Assembly: GCA_003598065.1 (NCBI GenBank)
Contig: QZKR01000028.1
Location: 1 to 64,000, forward strand
Length of the DNA: 64,000 bases
From: Myxococcales bacterium
GTDB taxonomy: Bacteria > Myxococcota_A > SURF-8
Direction of reading: 5' to 3'
Positions within the stretch are counted from its first letter, which is position 1. Each line of letters begins with the position of its first letter. The translations under genes were made by a program, and so were the position numbers. The notes beneath the pieces were generated by a model. That model made no database searches. It worked only from the letters and a program-made list of their open reading frames with translations, and was not told where the DNA came from. Positions 4,813 to 61,214 of this stretch are shown one piece after another.

Positions 4813-7248
4813 TCAGTCCAGCACCACGCCCCACTCGACGGCCGTGAAACCCTGACGGGTCATGGGGGCGATGGCAGGGGCGAGCAGCGGCCGCGCCGAC
4901 GTCTCCGGGGAGATCACGAACCACAGCCTGAACAACGAGTCCGGCGCGGGTTCGATGAAGAGTTCGGCCAGCGGGTCGAGGATCTGCGCCGCGCTCAACG
5001 GATAGACGGCGTAGAACGGCGCGAGCGGCAGATGCACGCTCCAGTAATCGACGAAGTCGGCGGTTTCGGCCGGCGTGAAGCCGTAAGCCGTAAGCGTCTG
5101 GTCGAAGAATTCCGCCACGTCGGCGGCGGGCACGGCCCAGCCTTCCGCGAGCGGGAAGCGGTGCGGGATCTCGGCTTCATAAAAGAGGTAGCGGTACTGC
5201 CCGTCGATCAGGCCGTCCGGCGACACCGTGACCTGCCAGCCCTGACCGTATTCCGGGATCGACTGCGTGACCTCGCAGGTCCAGCAGAGCCCGAGCGTCA
5301 CCGACACCTCGGTCGTCTGCGTGGGGTACAGGTAAAGGTTCGGCTTGTCCGCCATCGCCTCGGTGGTGATGGTGAAATCGACGATCGTCTCCTGCCTCGC
5401 GAAAACTTGCACGGCGCCGCGCTGGTCGCCTGTCTCCCAAGCGTTTCGTTGGGCGGACATCCTGTAGAGGCCGGGCGAGAGCGTGAACGAATAAGCCCCC
5501 TGGTCGTCCACCGTGGCCTCGGCGATCAATTCGTCGTTCTGTATGACGGTGACGGTCGCGCCCACAGCCGGGCCGATCCAGACCGGATCAGGGTTCATTC
5601 CGTCGTATTCTTCAAGATTCACCGTTCCCCTGACCGAGCCCATCTCCGAGAGCGCCCCCGCAACCTGCTGGTATTGAACAATGGCGCGCGAGACGTCGCG
5701 CGGACGCGGATCCAAAAACAGCGGCAGCATCTCCGCTGTATGGCTGTCGGGCCAGAGGTAAATCACGAAAGCTCCGTTCCTGTAGCCGGGCTGCAGGAAA
5801 AAGGCGTCGTTGGAATACAGGCCGAAGAAGACGTCGCGCCAGGCGTTCATGAAAACGTTCACTTCGTCCGGATAAAGCCCCGCCGCCGCCAGTTCGGCGG
5901 CCAGCTCATCGGCCAGTCCGCTCCAGCCCGCCGGGATTTCGACGGGCATCCATTCCTCATTGGATGTCAGATGGTGAAGCGCCAGATGCTGCACGGTGGG
6001 CGCTTGGTCGCCGGGGCCGATGGCATCCACTTTGCCCCAGGCGAGATCGGCGGCGGTGACGGGGCAGAAGGTCGGATCCATGCACTCGCCTTGCGTGTTC
6101 CGATAGAGCAGAAGAACCGGCCCCAGCGGCACGTCGCTGTTGTTGGCGAGCGTGAAGGTGACGGAATCGCCGGACTCGTCCATGACGAATTGCGCATCGA
6201 GCGGCGGGATGTAGGTGGCCAACTCGCCGGTGTAGAAGAGCAGCTTGGAAACGACGCCATCAGCGCTGAGACAGTCCGCGTCCGGCACGACCCAGGCGGG
6301 GAGCTGGTAAATCTCGCGGTCTTCCGGATCGAACTCGTCGAGGCCCGGCTGCGGCGTGGGCGTGGTCTCGCACTCGCCTTGCGTGACGTCGATATCGCTC
6401 CACCAGATCGTCGGGCCGTTCGGCCGCTCGGGCCAGGTTTCCGTCGTGCCGCCCGAGGCGAAGTGCACGCCCACGTCCAGCGTCATGGGCTGATCGGCGT
6501 AGATGTAGATCACCGGCTTGGCCGGCATCGCGCCCCAGTAGCGGGGCGAACCGGCCGCAACCTCCGAACCGCCGGCCAGATGCGGCAGGTTCACCCCCCA
6601 CTCGTGCAGGGTGTAAGGCTCGACGGACAGGACTTCGCAGGTTCCGCCGCACTCGGGATGCGTGGCTTGCAGCGGCTTGCAGTAGCCTTCCAATGTGCAT
6701 TCGAAATCGGACATGCATTCATAATCGCCGATGCCAATGCACATCATCGTGCCGCCGACGTTCTGGCAGGTGCTGCACGGCGGGCAGTCCTCGGAGAAAC
6801 GGCATTCCCCCTCGAAGTCGTAGTCCATGTCGCCGTCGGGCTGGTCGCCGTCCGGCTCGGAGGGGCAGGTTCCGAATGAGCCGTCGGGGTACTCGCAGGG
6901 CAGGCCTCCCGGGCAGCCGGCATTGGTGCAGCAGTATATAACGGGTGATTCGTCGAAGGGACCGTCATCGCACGCTTGGGTCTCGGTGCAGACCCAGCCT
7001 TGCGGGCAATCGCAGAGACTTTGACATTGAGCTTCGTCGCCGTCCGGCAGGTCTCCATCCGTTGAATCGCCATCCGGAAAATCGCCGTCCGGCAGGTCGC
7101 CGTCCGTCGCATCTCCGTCCGTCGCCTCGTCGCCATCCGCCTCTTGGCTGTCGCCATCGGCGAAGGTCAGCGTTTTCTCCTCTACGCAACCAAAACCCGC
7201 GAGGAACAAAAGCACGGCAACCCAGATTCCCACCCATCGGATAGCCAT
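4813..7248 (-). CDS. Lipoprotein with N-terminal DGD-repeat tract, Cys-rich segment and two KPxxYxYxxQ-type regions
   Basis: MAIRWVGIWVAVLLFLAGFGC lipobox then DGDSQEADGDEATDGDATDGDLPDGDFPDGDSTDGDLPDGD; start chosen at 7248 within ORF 4813..7326. Confidence 0.85.
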   Translation of the reverse strand: MAIRWVGIWVAVLLFLAGFGCVEEKTLTFADGDSQEADGDEATDGDATDGDLPDGDFPDGDSTDGDLPDGDEAQCQSLCDCPQGWVCTETQACDDGPFDESPVIYCCTNAGCPGGLPCEYPDGSFGTCPSEPDGDQPDGDMDYDFEGECRFSEDCPPCSTCQNVGGTMMCIGIGDYECMSDFECTLEGYCKPLQATHPECGGTCEVLSVEPYTLHEWGVNLPHLAGGSEVAAGSPRYWGAMPAKPVIYIYADQPMTLDVGVHFASGGTTETWPERPNGPTIWWSDIDVTQGECETTPTPQPGLDEFDPEDREIYQLPAWVVPDADCLSADGVVSKLLFYTGELATYIPPLDAQFVMDESGDSVTFTLANNSDVPLGPVLLLYRNTQGECMDPTFCPVTAADLAWGKVDAIGPGDQAPTVQHLALHHLTSNEEWMPVEIPAGWSGLADELAAELAAAGLYPDEVNVFMNAWRDVFFGLYSNDAFFLQPGYRNGAFVIYLWPDSHTAEMLPLFLDPRPRDVSRAIVQYQQVAGALSEMGSVRGTVNLEEYDGMNPDPVWIGPAVGATVTVIQNDELIAEATVDDQGAYSFTLSPGLYRMSAQRNAWETGDQRGAVQVFARQETIVDFTITTEAMADKPNLYLYPTQTTEVSVTLGLCWTCEVTQSIPEYGQGWQVTVSPDGLIDGQYRYLFYEAEIPHRFPLAEGWAVPAADVAEFFDQTLTAYGFTPAETADFVDYWSVHLPLAPFYAVYPLSAAQILDPLAELFIEPAPDSLFRLWFVISPETSARPLLAPAIAPMTRQGFTAVEWGVVLD

Positions 7249-7420
7249 GGCGGCGTCTCCTCTCTTTTGGTCCCAATATTGATCGCGACACCTGCGGATG
7301 ATCAGTGCAAAATTTCGGCCAATCACCCGACCGGAAAACCTTTTTCAATCCGCGAGCTTGCCGAACAGGGACGTCAAAGTGCTGTAAAGCGATGTTTACA
7401 TCCGAACGACGCCTGTCCGA

Positions 7421-9142
7421 CTAAGGCGCGTCCATCGAGCCGATGGCGTCGTGGACGCCGTCGTGCGCATAGACTTTTATGTAGCAGCTTCGCGCCGAGA
7501 AAGAACGGAATTCCTCTGGAATTTCCAAACGGGCGCTGAATGCGCCGCCGGCGTCCACGGGGACTTCCGCGCCGACCAGCACTTTGTCCACGGCCTTTTC
7601 CCAGTTGCGCTGGACGGTGGCTTCGTCGGGGGCGTAGGGATCGACCTCCTCCAGTTCGTGCAGCATCACCGTTCGCTTCACTTCCAGCGTCACGAAGGCC
7701 GTCCCCTCGCTCACGTCGGGGGCCACGCCTTCCACCGTGAATACGCCGTCCGCCACGGAGCCTTCGGTGACGCCCGGCTCGAAGACGATCCGGCCACGGG
7801 GCAGATTGAGCGCCGTCGCCGGGTCGCCGAGCAGGTTGTAAAGGTCGAGGTGCTCGTAACGCAGCATCTCCTGTTCCTCGCGCGGGACGCCGCTGGTCTC
7901 CGCGCCGTTATCGACGATGCGGCGGATGTCGTCGTCGTTTTCGATCGCCTGATGCTTGGCGATGAACACGGCCTCGCCGATCGTCGGCGGCTGGGCGTCG
8001 AGGATGGCGCGCTGCAATTCGTAAGGCAATATTGCGTTGCCGTAAGGGTGCGTCGTGCTCGACCCGGCGAACGAGACGAGCGCGCCGTCCGTTTTCCAAA
8101 TGATCGCCTCGGCGATCGAATCCATGTCGGAGGCGAAATCGCCGTTGCCGCAGGCGAAGAAGAAGGAGAACGGCAAGCGGTGTCCGCAATGCACGGCCGC
8201 GAGGTTTTCCGCTTCCAAGCCGTCCGTGCCGTCCGTGCTGCCGTGGCCGATATAAACGGAAAAGAGATTACCCTGATTGAACAACTCGACAATTTTCGGC
8301 TCGATGGGCGTGTAGTAGTAGGCGCTGGCGGGATTGCCATAGACGCCGAAAACGTCGAAGGCATGGTTCAGTTCTTCCAGAGCCATGAAGGTGACCATCT
8401 CGATCATGCCGTCGATCTGCTCGCCGAAGCCGGCCTCGCCGGCCCAGAGCATGAAACGGCGGTTCCAGAGGCCCGTCTCGTAGCTCGACTCATGGGTCTG
8501 GACTTTGCTCAAGTAAGCGCGGACCTGCTCCGGCGTGCGCGCCGGAAGGCGGCCGACCACGGCGTCGGGGATGCGGTCGTCGTCAAGATCGCCGTAGGTG
8601 TTGTCGGTGTAGCAGTCGCCGGTGGAGCTATAGCAATCGATAACGGGGACCTGCTCGGCCGTCTGCGCCTCCCAGGGCGGCAGGGCGTCGCCGATCAAGA
8701 GCAGAAACACGGGCCGCTCGCTGGGATTGTTCGCCTGGGCCGTTTCGACCAAACCCTGCACGGCATTGAGCAGCGACGCCGAGTCGTCGGCGTCGTCCGT
8801 CAGGTCGGAGATCGCGAAGCTCTCCACGGCGTAGCCCGTACCGCTCCGGTAGTCGGCGTAATCGGCGGCGGCTTCGGCCAGGCTGTCCGCCGCGACGATC
8901 ACATAAGGAACGAACGGCGCAACTTCCTGCTCCTCGTCGCCATCGGGTTGGGCGTCCGGTTCGGCGTCCGGCTCGGCGTCGCCGTCGCTCCGGTCGCCGT
9001 CCGGCGCATCGCCGTCGAGGCCGTCGCTCTCGCCGTCGCCGTCCGAGTTTTGGGACTCCGCGCCGCCGTTTGTCTCTCCGCAGGCGAGAACGAGAAGCGC
9101 CAAAATCGCCGCCGCCGCCAGACATCCGCGTTTCATGGGCAA
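7421..9142 (-). CDS. DGD-repeat lipoprotein with peptidase C25 (gingipain-like) domain
   Basis: Lipobox LALLVLAC; DGD tract; C25-like His and Cys motifs YIGHGSTDG and FFFACGNGDF. Confidence 0.85.
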   Translation of the reverse strand: MPMKRGCLAAAAILALLVLACGETNGGAESQNSDGDGESDGLDGDAPDGDRSDGDAEPDAEPDAQPDGDEEQEVAPFVPYVIVAADSLAEAAADYADYRSGTGYAVESFAISDLTDDADDSASLLNAVQGLVETAQANNPSERPVFLLLIGDALPPWEAQTAEQVPVIDCYSSTGDCYTDNTYGDLDDDRIPDAVVGRLPARTPEQVRAYLSKVQTHESSYETGLWNRRFMLWAGEAGFGEQIDGMIEMVTFMALEELNHAFDVFGVYGNPASAYYYTPIEPKIVELFNQGNLFSVYIGHGSTDGTDGLEAENLAAVHCGHRLPFSFFFACGNGDFASDMDSIAEAIIWKTDGALVSFAGSSTTHPYGNAILPYELQRAILDAQPPTIGEAVFIAKHQAIENDDDIRRIVDNGAETSGVPREEQEMLRYEHLDLYNLLGDPATALNLPRGRIVFEPGVTEGSVADGVFTVEGVAPDVSEGTAFVTLEVKRTVMLHELEEVDPYAPDEATVQRNWEKAVDKVLVGAEVPVDAGGAFSARLEIPEEFRSFSARSCYIKVYAHDGVHDAIGSMDAP

Positions 9143-11213: not shown

Positions 11214-12944
11214 ATGCTCCAGCGTTTCACTTGGGCGGTCGCTCTTGCTGTCGGTCTGGCGCTTGCCGCCGCGCCCGAGGTTTCCGCCGAGCCGCGCTAC
11301 AGCGCCGACGGTTCGCAGGTGTTCTGGTTCGTCCAGATCTCCGATACGCACGTCTCGACTTTCTTCAACAGCGACTATGACGACCGCCTGCTCTGGGCCT
11401 TGGGCGAAGGCGTGCAGACGGTGGGGCCGTGGTTCGTCGTCGTCACCGGAGACCTCACCGACTCCACCGACGGCGTGGTCTACGGCACGGGCCCGCACCT
11501 TGTCGAATGGCAGGAATACCGCAGCCTCCTCGCCCAGGCAGGGGTGGCGGAGGATTTCTATTTCGACCTGCCCGGCAACCACGACGCTTACGGCGACGGC
11601 CAGTTGCGTTTTTACCGCCAGAATGCGCTTTCTCCTTCAGCCTACCTCTCGACGCAGCCCTACTGGGCGGTCGATATGCCTTACGGCCAGTTCAATTTCT
11701 TCGGCGCGGCCGACCCGGCCAACGACGGTCTGCAATGGCCCTGGGACAACGACCAGTTCACCGACGAGGAAATGAACGAATTGGAAACGAACCTCGCCTG
11801 GCTGGGCGAGGCGGATTTCGCCATGGCCTTCGGCCACCACGACTTCGCCGGGGTGGCCAATTCCGAGCGCTTCCTCACCATCCTGCTCGCCGCAGGCGCG
11901 ACCTATTACGCCCACGGCCACGAGCACGATCTGGGCGCGCGCCTGGACTCCGACGGCGTGCTGCGCTTCCGCATCGATTCGCTCGGGCAGAGCACGGACA
12001 ACCACTTCGCCGTTTACGCCCTGGACGACGGCGCGCTCTCGACGACGGCCGTTTCCGGCGCCTCGCCCTGGCCGTTGATCGTCGTCACCGCGCCCGTGGC
12101 GGCGCGCTACGACTTCACCGGCCGCAACGCCGAAGACCGCTCGGGGCGGCTTCCCGACGGCCGCCTCGGCCAGCGGGCCCGCGCCGACGAGACCCCCGTG
12201 GACAATCCCCACGCGCCGGGCGTGCCGCGCCAGTGCGCGCAGGCGCCGTTGCGGGCGCTCGTTTTCGACAAGGGCGGCGTGGTTTCCGTGCGCTTCCGCA
12301 TCGACGGCGGCGAGTGGCGGCCGATGAGCGAGCGGGGCGGCGCGCCGGAGCAGTGGCGGGCCCGTTTCGACGCGACGCCGCTTGCCGACGGGCTGCACGC
12401 GCTGTCCGTGGAGGCGCAGGGGACGCAGACCGTCGCCGAAACGATCCAGTTCCGCGTCGTCGATCTCCCTTGCGACATCGGCGAAGAGGATGCCGACGAG
12501 CCGCTGGAACAGGGGCGGGTCCGCAGGCTGTTTAACGAAACGGACGGCGACGCGCCCGATGGAGACGTTCCCGACGGCGATATTCCGGACGGCGACGTTT
12601 CGGATGGCGACCTGCCCGATGGCGACGAGGATTTTGAGACCGCCGACGGCGATGTCGGCGATGGCGACGAGCCAACGCCCGCCGATGGCGATGAAATTCC
12701 CGACGGCGACGAAGAAGCATCGCCACCCGATGCGACGGACGGCGATGCTCCGGGCGACGGCGATCCGATCATCGAGGTTCCGGACGGCGACCACAACTCG
12801 ATCATCCCGCCCGAAACCGGCGACGACGGGGCCGGTTCCGGTGGCTGTGCGGCGACGACCGCCGCCCCCTGGGCATGGGCGCTGTTTGCGGCGTTGGCCA
12901 TGGCGAGGGGCAGGCGGAAACGGCAAGCGTCCGGGGAAATATAA
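11214..12944 (+). CDS. Secreted metallophosphoesterase with C-terminal DGD-repeat tract and MYXO-CTERM-like anchor
   Basis: Signal peptide MLQRFTWAVALAVGLALAAAPEVSA; metallophosphoesterase motifs QISDTHVS, GDLTD, GNHD, GHEHD; DGD tract about 12535-12795; C-terminus GSGGCAATTAAPWAWALFAALAMARGRRKR. Confidence 0.87.
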   Translation: MLQRFTWAVALAVGLALAAAPEVSAEPRYSADGSQVFWFVQISDTHVSTFFNSDYDDRLLWALGEGVQTVGPWFVVVTGDLTDSTDGVVYGTGPHLVEWQEYRSLLAQAGVAEDFYFDLPGNHDAYGDGQLRFYRQNALSPSAYLSTQPYWAVDMPYGQFNFFGAADPANDGLQWPWDNDQFTDEEMNELETNLAWLGEADFAMAFGHHDFAGVANSERFLTILLAAGATYYAHGHEHDLGARLDSDGVLRFRIDSLGQSTDNHFAVYALDDGALSTTAVSGASPWPLIVVTAPVAARYDFTGRNAEDRSGRLPDGRLGQRARADETPVDNPHAPGVPRQCAQAPLRALVFDKGGVVSVRFRIDGGEWRPMSERGGAPEQWRARFDATPLADGLHALSVEAQGTQTVAETIQFRVVDLPCDIGEEDADEPLEQGRVRRLFNETDGDAPDGDVPDGDIPDGDVSDGDLPDGDEDFETADGDVGDGDEPTPADGDEIPDGDEEASPPDATDGDAPGDGDPIIEVPDGDHNSIIPPETGDDGAGSGGCAATTAAPWAWALFAALAMARGRRKRQASGEI

Positions 12945-19681: not shown

Positions 19682-20881
19682 TTACTCCCCTTCATGCACG
19701 GCGCAGGCGTCCTGCATTGCAGCCGGCAGGGCGTCGGCGAAGGGCGTGTCCACCGTCCCGTAGGGATGCGCCTTGAAAAAGGCATAGATCCAGGGGGACA
19801 GCGGGGTAGGGTAGACGTGCCCGTCGTAGTCGTGCGTGCAGGCGACGACGTCATGGCCCATCCCGGTGAGGTAATCGATCGACGCCTGGCCGGTCGCCGC
19901 AAAATCGAAGGTCATCAGCACCAGACTGTACGTATCGCCCTTCGTTCCCCAGACAAGCAACGCTGGAAACTTATTTTCGCCCGCGTAGGGTGTCCACTCG
20001 GCGCACATGCCGATGACGCAGGCCGTTTGCGCGGGATCGGAGAAATAGGCTCCGGAGAACGCCGCGACCGAGGCGAAAAGATCGGGATAGGCCACGGCGC
20101 AAAGATTGGCCATGAACGCCCCCGCCGAGAAACCGGCGGCGTGGATATGATTGACATCAACGGGAAAAGCTTCCTGGAGACAGGCCAGAAGATCGCCGAC
20201 GAAGGCCGCATCGACGTTGGCGTCGGGATTCTGATCGTCGTAGACCAGCGAATCCCAATCGAAGGCCACTTTGCCCGGCGGGAAGAGGCCGAGCGATTCG
20301 GGGACGATGCCGATGAACGGAAAGTCGGGCTTGTTGACGTTGGAACGGACCTGAAAGGCCGTCACCCAGTCGGCCATGTTGCCGCCCGACCCGTAGAAGA
20401 AAAACAGCACCGGCAAGGGCTCCTCGACCGTATCGATATCATCAGGGAGGACAAGTGTGAAATTGCGGGTTTTCCCAGCCGAGGAAAAGCCTTGGTTCAC
20501 GCCTTCCTGAAGGTCGTAGCCGAACGAATCGCAGCGCCAGCTGGTCGGTGTGTCGCCATCCGGCACATCGCCATCGAGGATGTCGCCATCCGGGATGTCC
20601 CCATCGGGGACGTCGCCATCGGGAATTTCCGGTTCCTCCGTGATGTCGCCGTCGTCAACAATTTCGTCGTCGTTGTCGCCATCCGTGGGCTCATCGCCGT
20701 CGGCAGGCGCGTCGCCGTCGGGAAGCGGCTGGTCGTCGCCGTCCGAGAGGGGCAGGTCTCCGTCGGCGCCGGCGTCGCCGTCGGCGTCGAACAACGGCAC
20801 GTCATCGTCGGAAGCGCCCCCGCTGCAAGCGGTGAGAAGCGAGATGCAGGACAGCAACACAAGGATGAGCCCGCGCGGCAT
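19682..20881 (-). CDS. DGD-repeat lipoprotein with PHB-depolymerase/esterase-like alpha/beta hydrolase domain
   Basis: Lipobox ISLLTAC; long DGD tract; YDLQEGVNQGFSSAGKTRNFTLVLPDDI, IHAAGFSAGAFMANLCAVAYPDLFASVAAFSG nucleophile elbow. Confidence 0.87.
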   Translation of the reverse strand: MPRGLILVLLSCISLLTACSGGASDDDVPLFDADGDAGADGDLPLSDGDDQPLPDGDAPADGDEPTDGDNDDEIVDDGDITEEPEIPDGDVPDGDIPDGDILDGDVPDGDTPTSWRCDSFGYDLQEGVNQGFSSAGKTRNFTLVLPDDIDTVEEPLPVLFFFYGSGGNMADWVTAFQVRSNVNKPDFPFIGIVPESLGLFPPGKVAFDWDSLVYDDQNPDANVDAAFVGDLLACLQEAFPVDVNHIHAAGFSAGAFMANLCAVAYPDLFASVAAFSGAYFSDPAQTACVIGMCAEWTPYAGENKFPALLVWGTKGDTYSLVLMTFDFAATGQASIDYLTGMGHDVVACTHDYDGHVYPTPLSPWIYAFFKAHPYGTVDTPFADALPAAMQDACAVHEGE

Positions 20882-42153: not shown

Positions 42154-43293
42154 TCAACGCGCCGGCGTCACGATGACGATGGGGCAGTTGACGAGCGCCG
42201 CGCCCTCGACCAGCAGCGCCGCGTCCAGGGCGTCCGTGATGTTCATCACCTCGGCGAAGTCGGCGTTGTCGTAGATGTTCACGTCCCACAGCGGCGAGTA
42301 AGGGGCGTCCGTCGGGATCGTCTGAACGACGTTGTGCGTCTGATCCGAGCCTTCTTCGGTGACGAAACCGGAGGCCGGGCCGCTGGCCGGATTCTCCGGG
42401 TCGGGATTGATGTTGAAGGTCACGTAGATGTCGGAGACCGGCGTCTGGCCGCCGTCCAGCATCAGGTCCTTCTCCACGAAATTGAAGTAGCTCACGACCT
42501 TGCCCTTGTACCAGCCGCGGGTCAGACCCGTGTCGCCGTCGCCGAAGCGCTTGGTGGCTGTCGAGCCTTCGGGCACGATGGGACAGTTGACGACAATGTC
42601 GGTTCCCTCGATGTCGAAGCCCTTCTCCTGGATCTCGGTCAGACTGGTGACGGTGTTGGCGACGTAATCGGCGGGGACGGCGACCTTCTGGACGTTCCAG
42701 AAGTCGTTGTAGCCGGCGTCTCCGGGGATGACGTCAACGATGTTGAGCTGGCCCTCGACGGGCATGTCCTCGCCTTCGCGGAAAAGAGCGAAGATGGGGG
42801 CGGGGGTCCGGCTCATGACGTCGAAGTTGTAGTACTCCACTTTCTCGCCGCTGGGCCCGAGGCCCTTGGTGATGAAAGGTCCCTGGTCGAAGTCGATGGG
42901 TTGATTCGGTCCGGGCAGACCGTTCTCGGGCGTGCGGACCATCAGGGTTCCGGCCGCTTCGCTGAAGCGGTCGATCATCGCCTTCTCGGCGGTGTCGGGA
43001 TCCTTCGGTACGTCGCCGTCGGTCGTGTCGCCGTCGGTCGTGTCGCCGTCGGTCGTGTCGCCGTCGGTCGTGTCGCCGTCGGTCATATCGCCGTCAGGCG
43101 TGTCGCCGTCGGTCATGTCGCCGTCGGTCGTGTCGCCGTCGGTCATATCGCCGTCGCTTGCGTCGCCATCGCTCGCGTCGCCGTCTTCGGCCATATCGCC
43201 GTCCGTCGTACTATCCCCGTCCGATGTGTCGCAGGCGACAAGCGCCAGCACGGCGAACATCGGCAGCATCCATTGCAAAGCAAGTTTTCTCAT
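42154..43293 (-). CDS. DGD-repeat lipoprotein, mature domain of unknown function
   Basis: MRKLALQWMLPMFAVLALVAC lipobox then DGD(MT/TT/TP)DGD array; about 280 aa globular domain. Confidence 0.85.
   Translation of the reverse strand: MRKLALQWMLPMFAVLALVACDTSDGDSTTDGDMAEDGDASDGDASDGDMTDGDTTDGDMTDGDTPDGDMTDGDTTDGDTTDGDTTDGDTTDGDVPKDPDTAEKAMIDRFSEAAGTLMVRTPENGLPGPNQPIDFDQGPFITKGLGPSGEKVEYYNFDVMSRTPAPIFALFREGEDMPVEGQLNIVDVIPGDAGYNDFWNVQKVAVPADYVANTVTSLTEIQEKGFDIEGTDIVVNCPIVPEGSTATKRFGDGDTGLTRGWYKGKVVSYFNFVEKDLMLDGGQTPVSDIYVTFNINPDPENPASGPASGFVTEEGSDQTHNVVQTIPTDAPYSPLWDVNIYDNADFAEVMNITDALDAALLVEGAALVNCPIVIVTPAR
43013..43200. repeat. 15-bp minisatellite encoding the DGD tract
   Basis: Unit GGTCGTGTCGCCGTC, four identical consecutive copies at 43021-43080 followed by degenerate copies. 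Confidence 0.92.
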
Positions 43294-47173: not shown

Positions 47174-48349
47174 ATGTCCCGCTCCATGTCTCTGTCTGGT
47201 GCGTTCTATCTCTCTATTTTCGTCCTGCTGCTGACCGCCTGCGGCACGGATGGCACAACCGGCGGCCCGCCGGATTTCGTGAATGACGGCGATTCCGCCG
47301 ACGATGGCGACGCGCCCGACGGCGATCTCTCCGATGGCGATTTATCGGACGGCGACCTAGCGGACGGAGATGTTGCCGACGGTGATATGCCCGATGGCGA
47401 TGCGGCCGACGGTGATGTTCCAGACGGTGATGAAAGCGATGGCGACGCACCCGACGGCGACGCCCCGGACGGCGATGAAAACGACGGCGATGCGCCGGAT
47501 GGCGATGTAAGCGATGGAGACACGACTGACGGCGACGTCCCGGACGGCGACACAACCGATGGCGATGTTGCGGATGGCGACGACGATCAGTCCGGCTTCC
47601 ATCCCGCCGGTTGGGCCAATCCGGCGCAGCACGGGGCCGCGTTCAAACTCGGCGAATCGGATTGCCGCAATTGCCACGGTCAAAACCTCGACGGCGGAGC
47701 GAGATCGTGCGACTCCTGCCATTCATCCGGCTGGCGCAACGACTGCGCCTTCTGCCACGGCGGCGCGGACAATCAAACCGGCGCGCCGCCCGTGGATCTG
47801 CGCGGCCGGACGGCGCGGGACGAAACGACGGTCGGCGCGCACACGACGCACGTAACCGCCGCCGGTCATCTGGCCTACGATTGCAGCCAGTGCCACGCGA
47901 AACCCGACGACGTGCTCTCCCCGGGGCATACGCTCGACGCCACGCCCGGCCAGGCGGAGCTTGTCTTCGCCGCCGGTCTGAGCCCGCAAGGCGTTTTCAA
48001 CGGCGACGCCGCCTGTTCCAGCCTCTACTGCCACGGCGACGGCCGCACGGCGGGAGCTTCGCCGGCCTTCACGGGAACGATCGATTCCTGCTCTACCTGT
48101 CACCCCTTCATGAGCAGCACGTCGGACGCCTGGGCGACGATGAGCGGCGACCACCGCAAGCACTTGCGCGAGGGAATCGCCTGTCACGAATGCCATGGGC
48201 CGGTGCTCAACGACGATGAGACGATCAAGGCCCCCGAGCTGCACGTCAACGGCCAGAAAAACGTGCTGCTTCCCAGCGGCGGCGTCTGGAACGGCAGCAA
48301 CTGCACCGTCGTCTGCCACGGCGAGACCCATTTCGCGCAAGGGTGGTAA
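47174..48349 (+). CDS. DGD-repeat multihaem c-type cytochrome lipoprotein
   Basis: Lipobox LLLTAC; very long DGD tract; CXXCH x6 (CRNCH, CDSCH, CAFCH, CSQCH, CSTCH, CHECH) plus CSSLYCH and CTVVCH. Confidence 0.9.
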   Translation: MSRSMSLSGAFYLSIFVLLLTACGTDGTTGGPPDFVNDGDSADDGDAPDGDLSDGDLSDGDLADGDVADGDMPDGDAADGDVPDGDESDGDAPDGDAPDGDENDGDAPDGDVSDGDTTDGDVPDGDTTDGDVADGDDDQSGFHPAGWANPAQHGAAFKLGESDCRNCHGQNLDGGARSCDSCHSSGWRNDCAFCHGGADNQTGAPPVDLRGRTARDETTVGAHTTHVTAAGHLAYDCSQCHAKPDDVLSPGHTLDATPGQAELVFAAGLSPQGVFNGDAACSSLYCHGDGRTAGASPAFTGTIDSCSTCHPFMSSTSDAWATMSGDHRKHLREGIACHECHGPVLNDDETIKAPELHVNGQKNVLLPSGGVWNGSNCTVVCHGETHFAQGW

Positions 48350-48532: not shown

Positions 48533-51500
48533 ATGTACGCTTGTCGTAACCAAGGCAATCGCGGAACAGCCTTCCGTTTCGGTGTCGTTTTTTTCGCCAT
48601 CTTCCTTCTTGCCGCGTGCGAGACGCAGGTGACCAACGGCGACGAAGGCGACGGCGACGTTTCCGATCTCTGCGGCAACGACCACAAAGACGAAGGCGAG
48701 GTCTGCGACGGTCTCGACCTTGCCGGTCAAGGCTGCGAAGCGCAGGGCTTCGGCCCGGGCCTCCTGGCCTGCCGGCCCGACTGCACGGGTTTCGACACTT
48801 CCACCTGCTCGCCCGCCACGACCTGCGGCAACGATTTCATCGACATGGGCGAATTCTGCGACGGCATGGACTTGGGCGGCCAGTCCTGCGTGACGCTGGG
48901 TTTCGGCCCCGGCGCGCTGTCCTGCAAACTCGATTGCCTCGACTACGACCGCAGCCAGTGCCGCGCCCCCGTGACCTGCGGCAACGGCCGGCGCGACGGC
49001 GCGGAGCTGTGCGACGACGGCGACCTGAACGGCGCGACCTGCCAGACGCTCGGCTTCGGCGGCGGCGAACTCGCCTGTCTGGACAACTGCGGCGACTACG
49101 ACACGAGCGGCTGCGCCGCGTCCCTCCGCTGCGGCAACGGCGAGATCGACGCGGGCGAAACCTGCGACGAAACAGCCCTCGCCGGCCAGACCTGCGAGAG
49201 CTTGGGCTTCGGCGCGGGCGCGCTCGCCTGCCAGACCGACTGCAAGGACTTCGACCGCAGAGGCTGCGGCGCGCCCCTCACCTGCGGCAACGGCGGGGGC
49301 GATGGCGTCGAGGTATGCGACGGCGAGGATCTGGACGGCAAGACCTGCGTCGATCTGGGGTTCACCGGCGGCGAGCTGGCCTGCAACGGGCAATGCACCG
49401 CCTTCGACACCTCCGGATGCACGTCGGGCTGCACGCCCGAATGCGGCGAGCGCGAGTGCGGCCCCGATCCCGTCTGCGGCGAAAGCTGCGGCGACTGCGA
49501 CGAATACTCCACTTGCGACGAGGCCGGCCAGTGCGTCGAAATCTGCAATCTGGATCCGATCGACGCCGACCGGACGCTGACGATCGATCTGAAAACGGCG
49601 GACGTCGTCGCGACGTTCACGCTTGACGGCGAAACGATGCCCGACAACAGCCAAAGCAACGCCCGCGGCTATCTTGTCTTTTCCCGCATCGACAGCGGCG
49701 GCCAGTATTGGGTGGGCGTCGGCGACAAAGGCCAGGCCAGAATAGAAGCGACGATCTTCACCGGCGTCTACGATTTGTTCTTCGAGGGCGGCGGCGAGGA
49801 TTACCAGGACGTCCTTCCCGATCAGAAGATCCTTCTGGAACGCGGCCGGAGCTTTTCGGCCGACGAAACGCTGTCCTTCGATCTCAAGACTATCCGCGTC
49901 TCGGGCGATGTGACGCTGAACGGCCGGACAATGCCCGACAACGATAATTCCAACGAGCGCGGTTACCTGGTGTTCGGCAACCGCGGCACGGGCGACGCCT
50001 ACTGGCTGGGGATCGGCGCCACGGGCGCGGCGCATTACTCGAAGGTCTTTTTCGCCGCCAATTACGACGTGCATTTTTCCGGCGCCGACGAGGACTATCA
50101 AGACGTGCTGCCGGAACAGCGCATCGTGCTGTTTCGCGAGCGGAGCCTGACGCGCGACGCGACGCTGGACGCGGATCTCAAGACCGTCCGCATCGACGGC
50201 GACGTGACGCTCAACGGCCAGGCGATGCCCGACAGCGGCGGCTCCTACGATCGCGGCTGGGTGGTGTTTTCGATTCCGGAAACGGGAAATTCCTACTGGG
50301 TGGGCGTGGGTGCGAACAATGCCGCCGCCTACGAAGCGACCGTCTTCGCCGAAACCTATACTATTCTCTTCGCCGGCGGCGACGACGATTATCAGGACGT
50401 GCTCCCCTATCAGCGGCTGCAGATCGCTGCCGGCCGCGCCTTGACGAGCAACCAGCGGTTCGATATCGACCTGAAAACGGTGCGCGTCAGCGGAACGTTC
50501 ACGCTCGATGGCGAACGGATGCCGGACAGTTCGAACTCCTATGATCGCGGCTACGCGGTATTCACCGGCGCCACGACCGGCTGGTATCACAATATCGGCA
50601 TTGGTGCGAGCGGCCCGGCCTCCTTCGACGAGCGGCTGTTCGCCGACACCTACGACGTTGTCTTCAGTTCCACGGACGACGACTATCAGACCGTTCTCCC
50701 CTATCTGAAAACGCGCGTCGCGAAGGCGCTGGCGCTCAATGCGGATCGCAACCTCTCCTACGATCTGAGGACGGTCCAGATCAGCGGCGCGATCACGCTC
50801 GACGGGCAGACGATGCCCGACAATGGTCTCTCCTCCAACGGGCGCGGCTCCCTGGGCTTTCGTTCGCGGAACGCCGATTCCACGCTATGGCTCAGCATCC
50901 CCGCCACGGGCGCGGCTGTTTACTCGACGGCGCTGTTCGCCGGCGACTACGACATCCTCTATTCGCCGTGGGACCGCGACTACCAGGATGTGACGCCGCT
51001 GGCCAACGTGCAGAGCGGCCGCGCCGTGACGTTCGACGGCAATACGATGCGGAACATCGATCTGACGACGCACCGGCTGTCGCTCACGCTTACCTTGAAC
51101 GGCCAGACGATGCCCGGCAACGGCTCCGAAAACGACCGGGGCAGCCTGGGGCTGACGATGAAGGAGACGGGCGACACCGACTGGCAGGCCGTCGGGATTC
51201 GCGGCGCGGCGAAAATCGACGATCCCGTTTTCGAGGGCGCGTACGACGTGAGGTTTTCGGCTTATGACGCCGACTATCAGAACGTGCTGCCGCCGCAGGA
51301 TATTCTGCTGAAAACGGGCTGCTTCCGCATGGAAAATTGCGAGCTCAATCCGGCCGACCTCAGCGGCGCATGGTACGCCATCCCCTCCGCGCCTTGGTGG
51401 ACGCCGGTGTCTTTGGCGCTCGTCCAAAACGCAGACGGCGCCATAGAAGGCGCCTTCTACAGTTCCGGTTATACCGGCATCGTCTTCAACGGCCGGCGCG

Positions 51501-51655
51501 AGGGAGACAAGGCCAGCTTCGAATTCCAACCTTACTGCCTGGTGCATACGGAAGGGACGTTGTTGAACGGCTGCATGATGACGGGTACGATGGAGGCGCG
51601 CAACTGCGCGAGCACCGTTCCCTTCAGTCAGTTCGTGGCCTTCCGGCTGGAATAG
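48533..51655 (+). CDS. Large lipoprotein with five Myxococcus-type Cys-rich repeats and six tandem ~97-aa repeats
   Basis: Lipobox FLLAAC then NGDEGDGD; repeated CGNxxxDxGExCDGxxLxGxxCxxLGFGxGxLxCxxxCxxxDxxxC; six copies of TLxGxxMPDN...RGxxxF...YWxGxGxxGxA...DYQDVLP. Confidence 0.88.
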   Translation: MYACRNQGNRGTAFRFGVVFFAIFLLAACETQVTNGDEGDGDVSDLCGNDHKDEGEVCDGLDLAGQGCEAQGFGPGLLACRPDCTGFDTSTCSPATTCGNDFIDMGEFCDGMDLGGQSCVTLGFGPGALSCKLDCLDYDRSQCRAPVTCGNGRRDGAELCDDGDLNGATCQTLGFGGGELACLDNCGDYDTSGCAASLRCGNGEIDAGETCDETALAGQTCESLGFGAGALACQTDCKDFDRRGCGAPLTCGNGGGDGVEVCDGEDLDGKTCVDLGFTGGELACNGQCTAFDTSGCTSGCTPECGERECGPDPVCGESCGDCDEYSTCDEAGQCVEICNLDPIDADRTLTIDLKTADVVATFTLDGETMPDNSQSNARGYLVFSRIDSGGQYWVGVGDKGQARIEATIFTGVYDLFFEGGGEDYQDVLPDQKILLERGRSFSADETLSFDLKTIRVSGDVTLNGRTMPDNDNSNERGYLVFGNRGTGDAYWLGIGATGAAHYSKVFFAANYDVHFSGADEDYQDVLPEQRIVLFRERSLTRDATLDADLKTVRIDGDVTLNGQAMPDSGGSYDRGWVVFSIPETGNSYWVGVGANNAAAYEATVFAETYTILFAGGDDDYQDVLPYQRLQIAAGRALTSNQRFDIDLKTVRVSGTFTLDGERMPDSSNSYDRGYAVFTGATTGWYHNIGIGASGPASFDERLFADTYDVVFSSTDDDYQTVLPYLKTRVAKALALNADRNLSYDLRTVQISGAITLDGQTMPDNGLSSNGRGSLGFRSRNADSTLWLSIPATGAAVYSTALFAGDYDILYSPWDRDYQDVTPLANVQSGRAVTFDGNTMRNIDLTTHRLSLTLTLNGQTMPGNGSENDRGSLGLTMKETGDTDWQAVGIRGAAKIDDPVFEGAYDVRFSAYDADYQNVLPPQDILLKTGCFRMENCELNPADLSGAWYAIPSAPWWTPVSLALVQNADGAIEGAFYSSGYTGIVFNGRREGDKASFEFQPYCLVHTEGTLLNGCMMTGTMEARNCASTVPFSQFVAFRLE

Positions 51656-54271: not shown

Positions 54272-55636
54272 ATGAAACGGACGCGCAGGGCGCTGCTGAC
54301 GCTCGCGATTATGCTTGGAGTATTGGCTTTGCTGGCAGGTTGCGAGACGACCCCGGATGACGCCGACGGCGACGCGGTCGAGGGCGACGGCGATGCGGAG
54401 GAAACCGACGGGGACGGCGACACCGCAGAGCAGGATGGCGACATGATGGATGGAGACGCCACGGATGGCGATGCCGCCGATGGCGACGCCACGGATGGCG
54501 ACGCCACGGACGGCGATGCTACGGATGGCGATGCCGCCGATGGCGACGCGACGGATGGCGACGCCGCCGACGGCGACGCGACGGATGGCGACGCCGCCGA
54601 CGGCGACGCGACGGATGGCGACGCCGCCGACGGCGATCTTGAAGACACGGATGGAGACGTTGAAACGGAACAGGTGGAAGACGACGGGGAGGAAGGCGAG
54701 ACGGCGCAGAACCTCGGGACCAATCCGCTATACAGCGAGTGCGGCGGTTTCCCGGTTTCGGGAGGGAAGGATATTGTCCCGCCTCAGGACGAAAACTGCC
54801 GTGATGAGCGCCTGATCTGGACGTACGACCCCGGCACGGAGACGATCAGCTTCCTCAATCAGAACATCTGGTTGAACTGCTGCGGCGAACATGAAATCAC
54901 GATCACCTACGAGGAAGCGGAGGGCGTTTACGTAATTCATGAAATCGACCGCCCCGAGGGGGAAGGAGGCCGTTGCGACTGCGATTGCTTCTTCGACATG
55001 GCGATCGACCTGCCCGGCATCGTTCCGGAAGTCGGGCGAGAAGAGCCGCCGCAGCCGGTCATTTTTATCCGCATCGAGCGGCAGGCCACCGACGAGGGCG
55101 TCGAGCCGGCGGTTGTCACGCAGGGCACGATTATGTACATGAACCTTTACGGCGACGTGCTGATCGAGGAAAATATCGGCTATTGCGACGAGCCGCAAGC
55201 GGTGGGCAGCAATCCGGCCCTCAGCGATTGCGGCGGCTTCCCGGGCGGGCGCAGCATAACTTCGGAATGTGAGGACGAGATGCTCTCCTGGAGCTACGAC
55301 GCCGAAAGCTTCACGGTCTCTTTCTTCAACATCAACGCGCATCTCAATTGCTGCGGCGACCACGCGATCGAAGTTTTCTACAACGGCGGCGACGGCCTTT
55401 TCACGATCCAGGAGACCGACGCTCCGGAAAACGGGTCGGATCGCTGTTTCTGCGAGTGCCTTTTCGATTTCGCCATCGACGTGGCGAACGTCTCGGGCAT
55501 GATGCCGGTCGAACTGCTGCGCGACGTCACCGACGACGATCAGCCGGCGCTTCCGCTTTGGTCTGGAACCATCGACCTCACGGAGGGGTATGGGGATATC
55601 CTGATCCAGGAAAATGCGGGCGAGTGCGATCCGTAA
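54272..55636 (+). CDS. DGD-repeat lipoprotein with two tandem Cys-rich domains of unknown function
   Basis: Lipobox LALLAGC; DGD array; duplicated CGGFP...LNCCGxHxI...IxExDxPE...RCxCxCxFDxAID; GGAGG RBS. Confidence 0.88.
   Translation: MKRTRRALLTLAIMLGVLALLAGCETTPDDADGDAVEGDGDAEETDGDGDTAEQDGDMMDGDATDGDAADGDATDGDATDGDATDGDAADGDATDGDAADGDATDGDAADGDATDGDAADGDLEDTDGDVETEQVEDDGEEGETAQNLGTNPLYSECGGFPVSGGKDIVPPQDENCRDERLIWTYDPGTETISFLNQNIWLNCCGEHEITITYEEAEGVYVIHEIDRPEGEGGRCDCDCFFDMAIDLPGIVPEVGREEPPQPVIFIRIERQATDEGVEPAVVTQGTIMYMNLYGDVLIEENIGYCDEPQAVGSNPALSDCGGFPGGRSITSECEDEMLSWSYDAESFTVSFFNINAHLNCCGDHAIEVFYNGGDGLFTIQETDAPENGSDRCFCECLFDFAIDVANVSGMMPVELLRDVTDDDQPALPLWSGTIDLTEGYGDILIQENAGECDP
54440..54645. 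repeat. 15/30-bp minisatellite encoding the DGD tract
   Basis: CGGCGACGCGACGGATGGCGACGCCGCCGA identical at 54571-54600 and 54601-54630; one mismatch at 54541-54570. Confidence 0.93.
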
Positions 55637-55660
55637 GCTAGCTGGCTTTGGTTGCAAAGG

Positions 55661-55688
55661 ACGGGCCGGGCGCAACCCGGCCCGTTTT
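55661..55688. terminator. Intrinsic terminator between convergent DGD lipoprotein genes
   Basis: ACGGGCCGGG-CGCAA-CCCGGCCCGT-TTT. Confidence 0.85.
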
Positions 55689-57529
55689 CATTCTCCCACC
55701 TTCGTCCACCGCCCCATCCAGTACGCGCCTCGGAAATCGACGCCGGGAAGCAGGGCCCCCGGACCGTCGCCGCCGTTGGGCTCGTAGGGATTGCTGCGCC
55801 ACTCGAAGTTGCTCGGCCGCCGGATCGCCTTGGGAACCGGCTGGTCGCAGACGGTCGAACCCTTGCGCCCGCCCTCGTTATAAACGTTCACCGTCGTTCC
55901 GTCGTTGAGCACGCAGACGCCGCTTTCCAGTTCCGCGTCGTCGCAGTTCTCGACCGGATAGGCGAAGTACGGCGGCTCGGGGAAGACGGAAAGCGTCTCC
56001 ACCGCGTCGGCCAGGGCGAGGGCGTCCGCCTCGCCGCCGGTCGCCGGGCCGTAGGCCGTGCCGTCCAGCATCGTCGAGATGACGACGAAATCGTAGAGCG
56101 CCATGTTGGCCCCGACGGGCGTGAAATCCTTGCCGGGGATGTCGTAGAGCTGGCTCCAGGCGGCCTCGCGGATCTTCTCCCGCGCCTCGGGATCCTTGAT
56201 GTAGCGGTAGGCGAGCCAGGCGGAGATCATCGCCATGTTGTAGTTCGAGTAGTTGGAGGACTTGTCCATGGCGATGTAGATCATGTCCTCCAGGGCGATC
56301 GTCGGCAGGCCGCGTTCGGCGATGAGCCGGTCGTACAGATAGGTCTCCTGCGCCGGATCGTCGGCGGCGTAGGTGTAGGCGGCGACGATGCCCAGGGCCA
56401 TCATGGCGTAGAAGCCGTTGTTGAAGCCCGGCGAGTAAAGATCGCGCTCGATGGAGTGCTCGTTGATGTAGCCGTGGAAGGTGATCCGCCCGTCGGCGTC
56501 GGGGAACTCCAGGTCGTAGCCGGACTCGCGCACCACCTGCAGCGCGGCGAGCACGCCCGAGGCGTCCTGACGGAGGCGCGCTTTCATTTCGTCCGAGAAA
56601 GCGGGATCGTCGCGGATGACTTCGTAGCCGATGGCGATGGCCAGCGCCCAGCCGAGCATCATGTCGCGGCTGCAGGAATCCTCCCAGTAATAGTCGGGAT
56701 ACTGGCCGCTGACGTCCTCGCGCCAGGCTCCGTTGTTTTTCTCCTCCGGCAGGGGATTTCCCTGCTCGTCGAACAGCGGCACGGGCACGACCGATTCGGC
56801 GAAACCCGGCACGCCCTTCTTGACGAAGCCGCGCGCCACGACGCCCGGCGCGCCGCCGACCGCGAAAGCGATGTGCATGGCGTCCAGCGAACGCTGCAAT
56901 TGCGCGCGGGCGACGTCCACCTCGCCGCAGTCGGCCCCTTCGCCGCGCAGGACCGAGTAGCGCATGGCGTCCGCCATGATGCCGAAGCCGGCGTAGAGTC
57001 CGGCCACCTTCTGCCAGCCGTCGATCGCCGACTCCGGCTCGGGTCCGCCGGAGAACGTCGCGAAGTCCCAGGAATCGTCCTCGCGCAGGAAGCGCGTCAG
57101 CAGATCGCGCTTCTCGACGCTGGTTTCCAGGACGGAGGCGTCTACATTGACCGCCATCGGCTTGGCGTTGAAGACGTGGAACTGCCGGTCGTACTGCCGC
57201 GCCAGATGGGCGAGCGTCGCGTCGTGGCCGTCCTCCAGCGGGCCGGGCAAAAGATGCGCGCCGCCGGGCTGATTCGTATCGCAGTCGGGCCAGGGCTCGG
57301 TATAGGGCGGCAGGTCGCGCCAGGCCGGCTGTTCCGGCTCGGCGTCTCCGTCCGTGTCGCCGTCCGTTTCGGCGGATTCTTGCTCATCGCCTTCGGACGC
57401 TTCATCCTCATCGCCATCGGCGGCGTCGCCGTCCGGGGTCGATTCCTCCTCGGCGCAACCGACGAAAAGCAGAATCAGCGCCAGGGCGGCCAGCGCGAGA
57501 AAAGGCCTCCAAAGCCGCGAGCAATTCAT
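55688..57529 (-). CDS. DGD-repeat lipoprotein with large, probably helical, domain of unknown function
   Basis: Lipobox LLFVGC; short DGD tract; 613 aa. Confidence 0.82.
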   Translation of the reverse strand: MNCSRLWRPFLALAALALILLFVGCAEEESTPDGDAADGDEDEASEGDEQESAETDGDTDGDAEPEQPAWRDLPPYTEPWPDCDTNQPGGAHLLPGPLEDGHDATLAHLARQYDRQFHVFNAKPMAVNVDASVLETSVEKRDLLTRFLREDDSWDFATFSGGPEPESAIDGWQKVAGLYAGFGIMADAMRYSVLRGEGADCGEVDVARAQLQRSLDAMHIAFAVGGAPGVVARGFVKKGVPGFAESVVPVPLFDEQGNPLPEEKNNGAWREDVSGQYPDYYWEDSCSRDMMLGWALAIAIGYEVIRDDPAFSDEMKARLRQDASGVLAALQVVRESGYDLEFPDADGRITFHGYINEHSIERDLYSPGFNNGFYAMMALGIVAAYTYAADDPAQETYLYDRLIAERGLPTIALEDMIYIAMDKSSNYSNYNMAMISAWLAYRYIKDPEAREKIREAAWSQLYDIPGKDFTPVGANMALYDFVVISTMLDGTAYGPATGGEADALALADAVETLSVFPEPPYFAYPVENCDDAELESGVCVLNDGTTVNVYNEGGRKGSTVCDQPVPKAIRRPSNFEWRSNPYEPNGGDGPGALLPGVDFRGAYWMGRWTKVGE

Positions 57530-57825: not shown

Positions 57826-59547
57826 ATGCAGTTTTCGCCAAAGTGGTCTCTATGGATTCTTGCCGGAGCGGCGATCGTTCTTTGCGCCTGCGGCTCGGTT
57901 GAGTCGGGGACGGACGGCGATTCTGGTCCCTATGCCGATGACGACTCGCTCTTTGATTGGGAACCGGACCTCGATCCGGGCGACCTGACCGATGACGAAC
58001 CCGACGGCGATCCGGCCGAAGACACCGACGCGGCGGATGCCGATTTGTCGGATGGCGACGAGGCCGACGGCGACCTGCCGACGGATGGCGATGCGACCGA
58101 TGGCGATACCCCTGACGGCGATACGGCCGACGGTGATCTTCCGGACGGCGACGACGACGCGGCGGAGCAGGTTGACGACGATATTTCCGAAGCGGTTGAG
58201 GACGTCGAAACGGCCGATGAATCGGACGAACCGCCGCTGGTCTGGGACGCGGGGTTGCTCCGCGACAAGCAGACGATCGGCTGCACATTTGAAAACCAGC
58301 GCACGGCGATGAAGGACGGCGTGCTGCTCGACCTCTGGGACGTGTCGTACATCTCCTACGAATCCATCGATTCCCAACTGCAGCCGATTCTCATCCGCGG
58401 CTTCGCCGCCAAGCCGGCGGGCGATTCCGGCCCCATGCCCGGCTTGGTCCTCGCCCATGGCCTCGGCGGCTGCACGAGCGAAAGCAACGCCCCGGGGCTG
58501 GCGGCGCTGACCGGTATGGCCGTTCTCGCCTATACGGGACCCGGCGGGTCGGGCGACGGCTGCGTGACGTCCGAAGGGCTGCCGGCGGGGCACGACAGCA
58601 GCCGGCGGCTGTTCGATACGATTCCCGACCCGCGCGGCTCGTGGTTCTGGGCCCACGCGGTCGCCGCGATGCGCGGTCTTACCTGCCTCTCCACGCGCCC
58701 CGAGGTGGACGATAACCGCCTTGGCATGACCGGCTTCTCCGCCGGCGGCGTCGTCACCCTGATTTCCGCCGCGGTTGATAGCCGCATCAAGGCCGCCGTG
58801 CCGCTTTCCGGTACGGGGGCATGGGACGTGGCCATGCAGTCGCCGGCGGCGTGGCAGTATGCGCTGCTGTCCCAGGCCGGGCTCACGACGTCCAGCCCCG
58901 AGTGGCGGGTGCTGCAAGCGGAGATCGTCCCGCACTCGCTTCTGCCGCGGACGCAGGCCAAGATCCTCATGACCAACGGCTCGACGGACGAGTTTTTCCC
59001 GCTTACGGCGCACGTGGCCACCTACGCCGCCATCCCCGGCGACGACAAGCGCACGGCGATCGCCGCCAACTTCGACCACGGCTGCTATTCCCTCACCGGC
59101 ATCGAGAGCGCGGCGAACATCGAGACCCGCGCCGAGCGGGTGGGGGCGGGCAACCAGCGCGCCTGGTTCAGGCACTGGTTCGGCACGGACGGCGACTATT
59201 CCTACTACCCCATGACGCCGGCGGTCAGCGTGACGCCGATCGGCGCGGCGATGTACGCTACGGCCGTCGTCGATAGCGGCGGCGGCAAGCTGAACGTGGA
59301 GAGCGTCAAGTTCTGGTGGAGCAACGACGACGCTTTCTACTTCGGCTCGGTGGATCTCACGGAATCCGGCGGCGGCCTGTGGGGCAAGGAAGTGCTCGCG
59401 ACGTTGCAGGCGAATACGGTCTACTTCGTCGAAGTGACCTACAAAACGCAGGACTGGTTTTTCCCGGAGCGCTTCATTCTCACGAGCGCGCCCGTCGTCC
59501 CGGCCAGTCCGGCGCCGCACATCCGCGACATCGTAAACTGCCTGTAG
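57826..59547 (+). CDS. DGD-repeat lipoprotein with alpha/beta hydrolase (dienelactone hydrolase/prolyl oligopeptidase-like) domain
   Basis: Lipobox IVLCAC; DGD tract; LGMTGFSAGGVVTLISAAVDSRIKAAVPLSG; start at 57826 within longer ORF. Confidence 0.87.
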   Translation: MQFSPKWSLWILAGAAIVLCACGSVESGTDGDSGPYADDDSLFDWEPDLDPGDLTDDEPDGDPAEDTDAADADLSDGDEADGDLPTDGDATDGDTPDGDTADGDLPDGDDDAAEQVDDDISEAVEDVETADESDEPPLVWDAGLLRDKQTIGCTFENQRTAMKDGVLLDLWDVSYISYESIDSQLQPILIRGFAAKPAGDSGPMPGLVLAHGLGGCTSESNAPGLAALTGMAVLAYTGPGGSGDGCVTSEGLPAGHDSSRRLFDTIPDPRGSWFWAHAVAAMRGLTCLSTRPEVDDNRLGMTGFSAGGVVTLISAAVDSRIKAAVPLSGTGAWDVAMQSPAAWQYALLSQAGLTTSSPEWRVLQAEIVPHSLLPRTQAKILMTNGSTDEFFPLTAHVATYAAIPGDDKRTAIAANFDHGCYSLTGIESAANIETRAERVGAGNQRAWFRHWFGTDGDYSYYPMTPAVSVTPIGAAMYATAVVDSGGGKLNVESVKFWWSNDDAFYFGSVDLTESGGGLWGKEVLATLQANTVYFVEVTYKTQDWFFPERFILTSAPVVPASPAPHIRDIVNCL

Positions 59548-60475: not shown

Positions 60476-60484
60476 CAACTTACA

Positions 60485-60525
60485 GAAGGGGAAAACGCGT
60501 GGAGCAGGTTGAAAAACCTGCTCCA
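60485..60525. repeat. Palindromic intergenic repeat, copy 2 (GAAGGGGAAAACGCG-TGGAGCAGGTT-GAAA-AACCTGCTCCA)
   Basis: Matches element at 4729-4769 including left flank. Confidence 0.8.
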
Positions 60526-60554
60526 ACGAGGTGAATCGAACGGCCTTTTGCCGC

Positions 60555-61214
60555 TTATTCTTCCGCCGGTTGGGGAAACTTCGGGCTGGTGGAAAAGTCA
60601 TACTGGCCCTGCAACCCTTCCACGCCCTTCAGATCGACGTAATACCGCAGGTAATACACGGTTGCGCCGTCGGTGATCTTGAAATAGTAATAGGTCTGTT
60701 CCTCGACGTCGATGCGCTCTACGGCGTCGAAGGGGCCGACATAGGGCAGCGAACCGTTGTCGGCCGCCAGCCGCGACTTGCTCCACGCCGCCTGCACCTG
60801 CCGCGACAGGTCGCCGTATCCCAGTTCGAAGCCGTAAAACGTATAGCCGAGATTGGTGGCCGAGGTCGCCGACATCCGGTCGGCCACCGTCCGCCACGTC
60901 CCGTCGCCCGGCGCGCCGTCGTCCGTGTGCGCGGAGGGAGTAAGCGCGACGCCGCCGTCCTTGGGGAAAGCGGCCTCGCCGCTGAAGGTCTCCGCGTCGT
61001 CGATGGGTTCTTCGGCGTCGGCATCCGCCTCGTCGTCGCCGTCTTCGCCGGAGGCTTCCGCGTCGTCGTCCGTATCGCCGTCCAAGCCGTCGTCGTCGCC
61101 GTCCGCGCCGTCGCCGTCCGTGTCGATGTCCGTCTCGCCGCAAGCCGCCACAAGCGCGGCCGTCAAAACGAGGACTACCCACCAGCATCCGATAGCGCGC
61201 TTGAACATCGTCAA
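60555..61214 (-). CDS. DGD-repeat lipoprotein, small mature domain of unknown function
   Basis: Lipobox ALVAAC; TDGDGADGDDDGLDGDTDDD tract. Confidence 0.82.
   Translation of the reverse strand: MTMFKRAIGCWWVVLVLTAALVAACGETDIDTDGDGADGDDDGLDGDTDDDAEASGEDGDDEADADAEEPIDDAETFSGEAAFPKDGGVALTPSAHTDDGAPGDGTWRTVADRMSATSATNLGYTFYGFELGYGDLSRQVQAAWSKSRLAADNGSLPYVGPFDAVERIDVEEQTYYYFKITDGATVYYLRYYVDLKGVEGLQGQYDFSTSPKFPQPAEE

Follow-up and report, generated by a model that had tools for sequence, protein, structure and literature searches.

Why do exported proteins with different domains in one bacterial genome share an acidic tract built on Asp-Gly-Asp (DGD), and what might this tract do for them? The question is posed by the window, by which we mean the whole 64,000-nucleotide stretch analysed here (G000:C3:1-64000), which lies within a 5.40-Mb, 183-contig Myxococcota MAG assembly of 94.6% completeness. 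A preliminary description of the window had listed 13 genes encoding such a tract and had offered three readings of it: a lineage-specific stalk, a surface-sorting signal modelled on the LES of Bacteroidetes lipoproteins, or a Ca2+-responsive tether.

DGD tracts in the window

All 13 open reading frames are present (Table 1), and 12 of them carry the tract, ten under a strict rule of at least three DGD with gaps of at most 14 aa and two in a looser form. The listing failed for the thirteenth, the gene at 48533, which has almost no tract: a single DGD near its N-terminus and Cys (NGDEGDGDVSD) is marginal at best. As described, a lipobox is present in 12 of the 13 proteins, the exception being encoded at 11214-12944, where a signal peptide is combined with a C-terminal MYXO-CTERM-like tail (GSGGC-hydrophobic-RGRRKR) that scores 18.8 bits with TIGR03901, just below the cut-off of 20. 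BLASTP comparison agreed with the earlier statement that the proteins share no homology, except for a 41-aa match between those encoded at 37451 and 48533. Among the domains of the window proteins are Peptidase_C25, metallophosphoesterase, esterase, DUF2961, globin, cytochrome c7 and AXE1; the domains joined to tracts are varied, and most are of kinds usual in extracellular proteins. In the tract at 26525-26689, Cys residues are placed regularly (DDCEGDDCFEEDGDYCEGEDCIEEDGD), and this tract could be a disulfide-stiffened stalk. The 153-bp tandem repeats at 48857-49385, which encode Cys-rich modules of the 48533-51655 protein, gave no match in Pfam or NCBIfam.

Table 1. Genes and DGD tracts of the window (positions in nucleotides).
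Feature	Position	Strand	Remarks
Lipoprotein, 811 aa, CarboxypepD_reg-like domain	4813..7248	-	second short tract 6829-6852
DGD tract of 4813 gene	7036..7158	-	8 DGD; 10 aa after lipobox Cys
Lipoprotein, Peptidase_C25 (gingipain-type) domain	7421..9136	-	E 8.4e-52
DGD tract of 7421 gene	8936..9043	-	5 DGD
Signal peptide, metallophosphoesterase, C-terminal tract, MYXO-CTERM-like tail	11214..12944	+	no lipobox
DGD tract of 11214 gene	12543..12791	+	13 DGD; before C-terminal anchor
Lipoprotein esterase	19682..20881	-	
DGD tract of 19682 gene	20552..20782	-	12 DGD
Lipoprotein with DUF2961	26270..29446	+	
DGD tract of 26270 gene	26525..26689	+	Cys-containing units; 39-bp tandem repeat inside
Lipoprotein, bacterial-type globin domain	37451..38890	-	loose tract 38486-38587, 5 DGD, first DGD ~82 aa after Cys
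Lipoprotein (DUF7482)	42154..43269	-	
DGD tract of 42154 gene	43012..43221	-	14 DGD; starts 4 aa after Cys; over 43012-43185, 11.6 copies of a 15-bp unit with 87% match, the most regular such array in the window
Lipoprotein, cytochrome c7-like domain	47186..48349	+	
DGD tract of 47186 gene	47285..47581	+	20 DGD
Lipoprotein, 153-bp Cys-rich repeats	48533..51655	+	no real tract
Lipoprotein, no known domain	54272..55636	+	
DGD tract of 54272 gene	54365..54658	+	19 DGD
Lipoprotein, loose N-terminal tract	55688..57529	-	loose tract 57344-57433, 4 DGD in first 40 aa after Cys
Lipoprotein, AXE1/alpha-beta hydrolase domain	57826..59547	+	tract 58051-58152
Short lipoprotein, no known domain	60555..61208	-	tract 61035-61118

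The tract is confined to anchored proteins

A survey of 2.38 Mb of the 5.40 Mb (44% of this MAG, with longer contigs favoured), in which 1,696 genes were called with our own codon-usage model, revealed a strict tract in 130 genes, or roughly one in thirteen. Extrapolation gives ~295 tract genes genome-wide, which bears out the earlier estimate of hundreds. When residues were shuffled within each protein, none of five rounds yielded a single tract gene, compared with the 130 observed, which excludes chance or composition as the origin of the tract; at the DNA level, a three-unit pattern has 198 matches in the genome and its reversed control has none. An island of tract genes was also rejected, as tract genes adjoin one another only slightly more often than expected (15 pairs observed versus 9.4 ± 2.8, or 12.0 ± 3.2 among exported genes).

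Anchor classes were assigned by regular expressions rather than SignalP, with odd cases inspected by eye, and this divided the 130 tract genes into 101 with a lipobox, 19 with a signal peptide and a MYXO-CTERM-like tail, and 10 others. Eight of these others have a lipobox-like Cys by eye, one has a C-terminal TM helix and one is ambiguous, and about 109 of the 130 encode lipoproteins. All 19 C-anchored tails fit the MYXO-CTERM architecture by eye (signal peptide, C-terminal Cys, TM helix and Arg cluster), and the seven genomic matches to TIGR03901 above its cut-off include several tract genes. Of the exported tract proteins, only that of G000:C11:46396-48033 has a plain C-terminal TM helix and lacks a Cys; its tract lies ~190 aa before the C-terminus.

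No real tract was detected in any of ~1,017 unexported genes, and nine tract genes that were first called signal-less turned out to be start miscalls or to lie at contig edges. The tract is likewise absent from all 171 soluble SPI proteins, setting aside two MYXO-CTERM tails and one C-terminal TM protein. The preliminary description had named an equal occurrence of the tract in cytoplasmic or periplasm-only proteins as the outcome that would speak against it; as far as sequence allows, the observed distribution favours that description. Its proposal that anchored proteins of many kinds share a lineage-specific stalk is well supported.

The tract follows the anchor

The tract of lipoproteins has no fixed position: it begins a median of 14 aa (quartiles 9 to 54 aa) downstream of the lipobox Cys, starting within 25 aa of this Cys in 59 of the 101 lipobox proteins and within 100 aa in 91. 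In the MYXO-CTERM-like proteins, it ends at a median of 18 aa before the tail Cys, a few of these distances being overestimated because a later Cys was picked. Gly/Ser-rich residues adjoin the Cys in both classes. In ~10% of tract lipoproteins, over 100 aa separate the tract from the Cys, and in some cases it lies near the C-terminus; the tract is therefore used between domains too, which counts against its being a stalk for the anchor.

Two pairs of paralogues differ in the end that carries the anchor. The window protein encoded at 55688-57529 is 31% identical over 533 columns to that of C41:16843-18804, yet the former is ordered Cys, tract, body and the latter body, tract, MYXO-CTERM. The same swap distinguishes C5:25597 from C31:9776 (28% over 524). 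Paralogues that change the anchor end also move the tract, which means that the tract follows the anchor and not a terminus. As judged from these alignments, such pairs separate a stalk that goes with the anchor from a signal that goes with the N-terminus. The N-terminal surface-sorting signal that had been modelled on the LES fares poorly here, given both the unfixed start of the tract behind the lipobox Cys and its C-terminal location in MYXO-CTERM-like proteins. Provided that the Cys of MYXO-CTERM carries a lipid, a tract just after the lipobox Cys and one just before the sorting Cys would yield mirror images of one mature order: lipid, Cys, Gly/Ser spacer, DGD tract and domain.

Selection acts on the composition of the tract

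The tracts consist of 38% Asp and 20% Gly, followed by Ala, Pro, Glu, Thr and Ser, with Lys and Arg together at 0.6% and a net charge of -0.44 per residue. By the charge-hydropathy line, all 130 tract segments (at least 15 aa) are classed as disordered, compared with 19 of 86 attached bodies, and we infer from this composition that the tracts are probably disordered. An AlphaFold2 model of one window protein, made from a single sequence, had a mean pLDDT of 37 throughout, which neither supports nor contradicts disorder. The "xxDGD pentapeptide" of the preliminary description was half right, in that successive DGDs are spaced by 5 in 224 cases but by 6 in 226, and spacings of 4, 7 and 8 also occur. 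Between the DGDs, Ala/Thr/Val are favoured, then Pro/Thr/Ala/Ser. Very long tracts occur in C58:10116-11417, with 31 DGD over 183 aa, and in G000:C10:53958-58541, with 38 DGD over 223 aa; the tract of the latter separates domains instead of adjoining the anchor.

Such a high content of Asp and Gly, together with 122 D-x-[DNS]-x-[DNS]-G hexapeptides in 144 tracts, could point to a Ca2+-responsive tether that stiffens upon Ca2+ binding. Full EF-loop-like patterns number only 23 in the same 144 tracts, however, and the variable spacing differs from the fixed DxDxDG-type loops of EF-hand-like Ca2+ repeats. Thrombospondin type 3 (TSP3), dockerin and RTX repeats all have fixed spacing. With few EF-loop patterns and no fixed period, a regular Ca2+ repeat was rejected, and the Ca2+ reading proposed earlier thus finds little support and is highly improbable; weak polyelectrolyte Ca2+ binding by the tract is possible.

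Tandem Repeats Finder identified 15/30-bp arrays in several tracts, one of them with an 87% match between copies, as would be expected if the tracts were mainly neutral minisatellites generated by 15-/18-bp slippage and tolerated in unconstrained linkers. However, codon spelling within long tracts is near random (176 distinct spellings versus 193 expected from random draws), which indicates that most arrays are old and that selection acts on the protein; recent slippage alone was rejected on this basis. A neutral origin, which we consider quite improbable, is also at odds with the lack of the tract in soluble exported proteins and with the recurrence of both flavour and position in a second genus and, in dialect form, in Enhygromyxa. 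It is the amino-acid flavour of the tract that is under selection, not its exact sequence or period.

Given that the tract goes with the anchor, occurs in anchored proteins only and has a constrained composition, a display stalk is the simplest reading. We put at roughly two in three the probability that the DGD tract serves throughout the genome as a standard stalk, acidic and probably disordered, between the anchoring Cys and a folded domain that is extracellular or belongs to the outer envelope. The sequence features suggest that the tract proteins are surface exposed and that the tract serves as a spacer. Counting against a stalk, 169 predicted lipoproteins have no strict tract, many of them with a looser acidic version. 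As a simple sequence rule, the tract could be used to predict the likely surface proteome of this uncultured lineage.

Export signals and sorting machinery

The tract itself could instead be a surface-export signal that resembles the LES but is usable from either end. In favour of this, it occurs only in anchored exported proteins, mostly near a lipidated or predicted-lipidated Cys at either end, and acidic residues are required in the Bacteroidetes LES (PMC5080379). It is also absent from the periplasmic-function lipoproteins checked, namely LptE, LemA, RlpA-like (DPBB+SPOR), PPIase, CsgG-like and Omp85/POTRA lipoproteins and two RND adaptor (HlyD) lipoproteins, an absence that counts for the stalk as well; the comparison is suggestive only, as these were picked among the least acidic entries of the list and the test was not blind. 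An export signal is nevertheless unlikely: the LES is position-critical near the Cys whereas the start of the tract is widely spread, Gly/Ser predominate directly behind the Cys with no fixed charged pattern, and MYXO-CTERM proteins already have a tag for sorting and a route through the T2SS. For M. xanthus, lipidation of the MYXO-CTERM Cys and export of the protein by the T2SS have been proposed (PMC11980579); of the T2SS, GspD is encoded here at C179:8026-9834 (E 1.6e-162).

LolA is also present in the genome, while the MrtX myxosortase model NF040593 gave no match in the genome search. The only Rce1/CPBP protease (PF02517) found in the genome, C48:4096-4665 (L254:4096-4665:+), matches several Mrt sorting-peptidase families, all below cut-off, and is a candidate myxosortase. 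Its gene adjoins that of a tract lipoprotein with 15 DGD (L254:4687-5760:-). We also regard as rather unlikely a direction-independent sorting code, in which a predicted lipidated Cys and a nearby polyanionic tract would be read by one export route. If such a code were true, both N-anchored lipoproteins and C-anchored MYXO-CTERM proteins would be sent to the surface, and tract-less lipoproteins would stay periplasmic.

Related tracts in other genomes

Three proteins of a sister genus in the same family (G001; L271, L277 and L283) share 46-60% identity with tract proteins of this genome and keep the tract beside the anchor, with a different tract sequence. The three-unit DNA pattern, with its 198 matches here, has 123 in Enhygromyxa salina SWB005, 92 in SWB007 and 55 in Myxococcales SB9155_S4_bin_12, compared with at most 8 in any of 283 other Myxococcota genomes. 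In the E. salina strains and SB9155_S4_bin_12, the tract takes the form GDGD(P/T/S) and stands behind a lipobox-like Cys at most of the loci inspected; E. salina lipoproteins with these linkers were observed at L049, L050, L077, L086, L091, L107, L108 and L123. Similar tracts in these genomes, and few elsewhere in the phylum, indicate that the habit recurs in the phylum while the exact dialect is local. Linkers sampled in four other Myxococcota genomes came from few lipoproteins, too small a sample to compare. The tract was rejected as a general bacterial feature, as 84,980 species genomes contain 102 six-unit stretches, mostly isolated, of which only 13 lie behind a lipobox by rule. No account of a DGD repeat in lipoproteins turned up in the collection of papers searched. 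As a named myxobacterium with strain genomes and a similar tract, E. salina is a possible test system for lipoprotein surface delivery in Myxococcota.

Comparison with known systems

The Bacteroidetes LES (C-X-K-(D/E)2-X) occupies fixed positions near the Cys, where position is critical (PMC5080379), and shares with the DGD tract the presence of acidic residues downstream of a lipidated Cys. The LES is a short, position-fixed K-(D/E)2 or SDDDD motif, whereas the DGD tract is farther off, long, variable and also C-terminal. Instead of K-(D/E)2, Q-A-(D/E)2 or SDDDD at about +2 to +6, residues +2 to +5 after the Cys are mainly Gly/Ser with no fixed charge pattern, and Lys is not among the common ones. 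Nor is the tract limited to the N-terminus of lipoproteins, being C-terminal in the 19 MYXO-CTERM-like proteins. Membership of the LES was therefore rejected on position and terminus, and the host belongs to Myxococcota, not Bacteroidetes.

A flexible linker between Cys and domain aids the trafficking of Lol-trafficked lipoproteins (PMC11784454), but such linkers are general and sequence-indifferent, whereas one compositional dialect dominates this genome. The E. salina linkers share a DGD-rich tract soon after a lipobox-like Cys, but have Gly before each DGD and belong to another lineage of the phylum. M. xanthus TraA, from the same phylum and with the same tail type, has a disordered region adjoining its MYXO-CTERM tail (PMC11980579); the passages on TraA mention no DGD repeat, and the tract type described here also stands behind N-terminal lipid anchors.

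The Ser-Asp repeat of staphylococcal MSCRAMMs (ClfA/ClfB/Sdr) is a flexible stalk that exposes a binding domain (PMC5717387) and, like the DGD tract, is a low-complexity acidic repeat between a domain and a surface anchor. The DGD tract matches a flexible acidic repeat running from anchor to domain in position and composition, its flexibility being read from composition only. The Ser-Asp stalk pairs SD repeats with LPXTG in a handful of proteins, whereas DGD repeats are paired here with a diderm lipid anchor or MYXO-CTERM in ~300 proteins and at both termini. By analogy with the Ser-Asp stalk of clumping factors, the DGD tract would probably act as a charged, extended spacer that holds its domain away from the crowded outer membrane.
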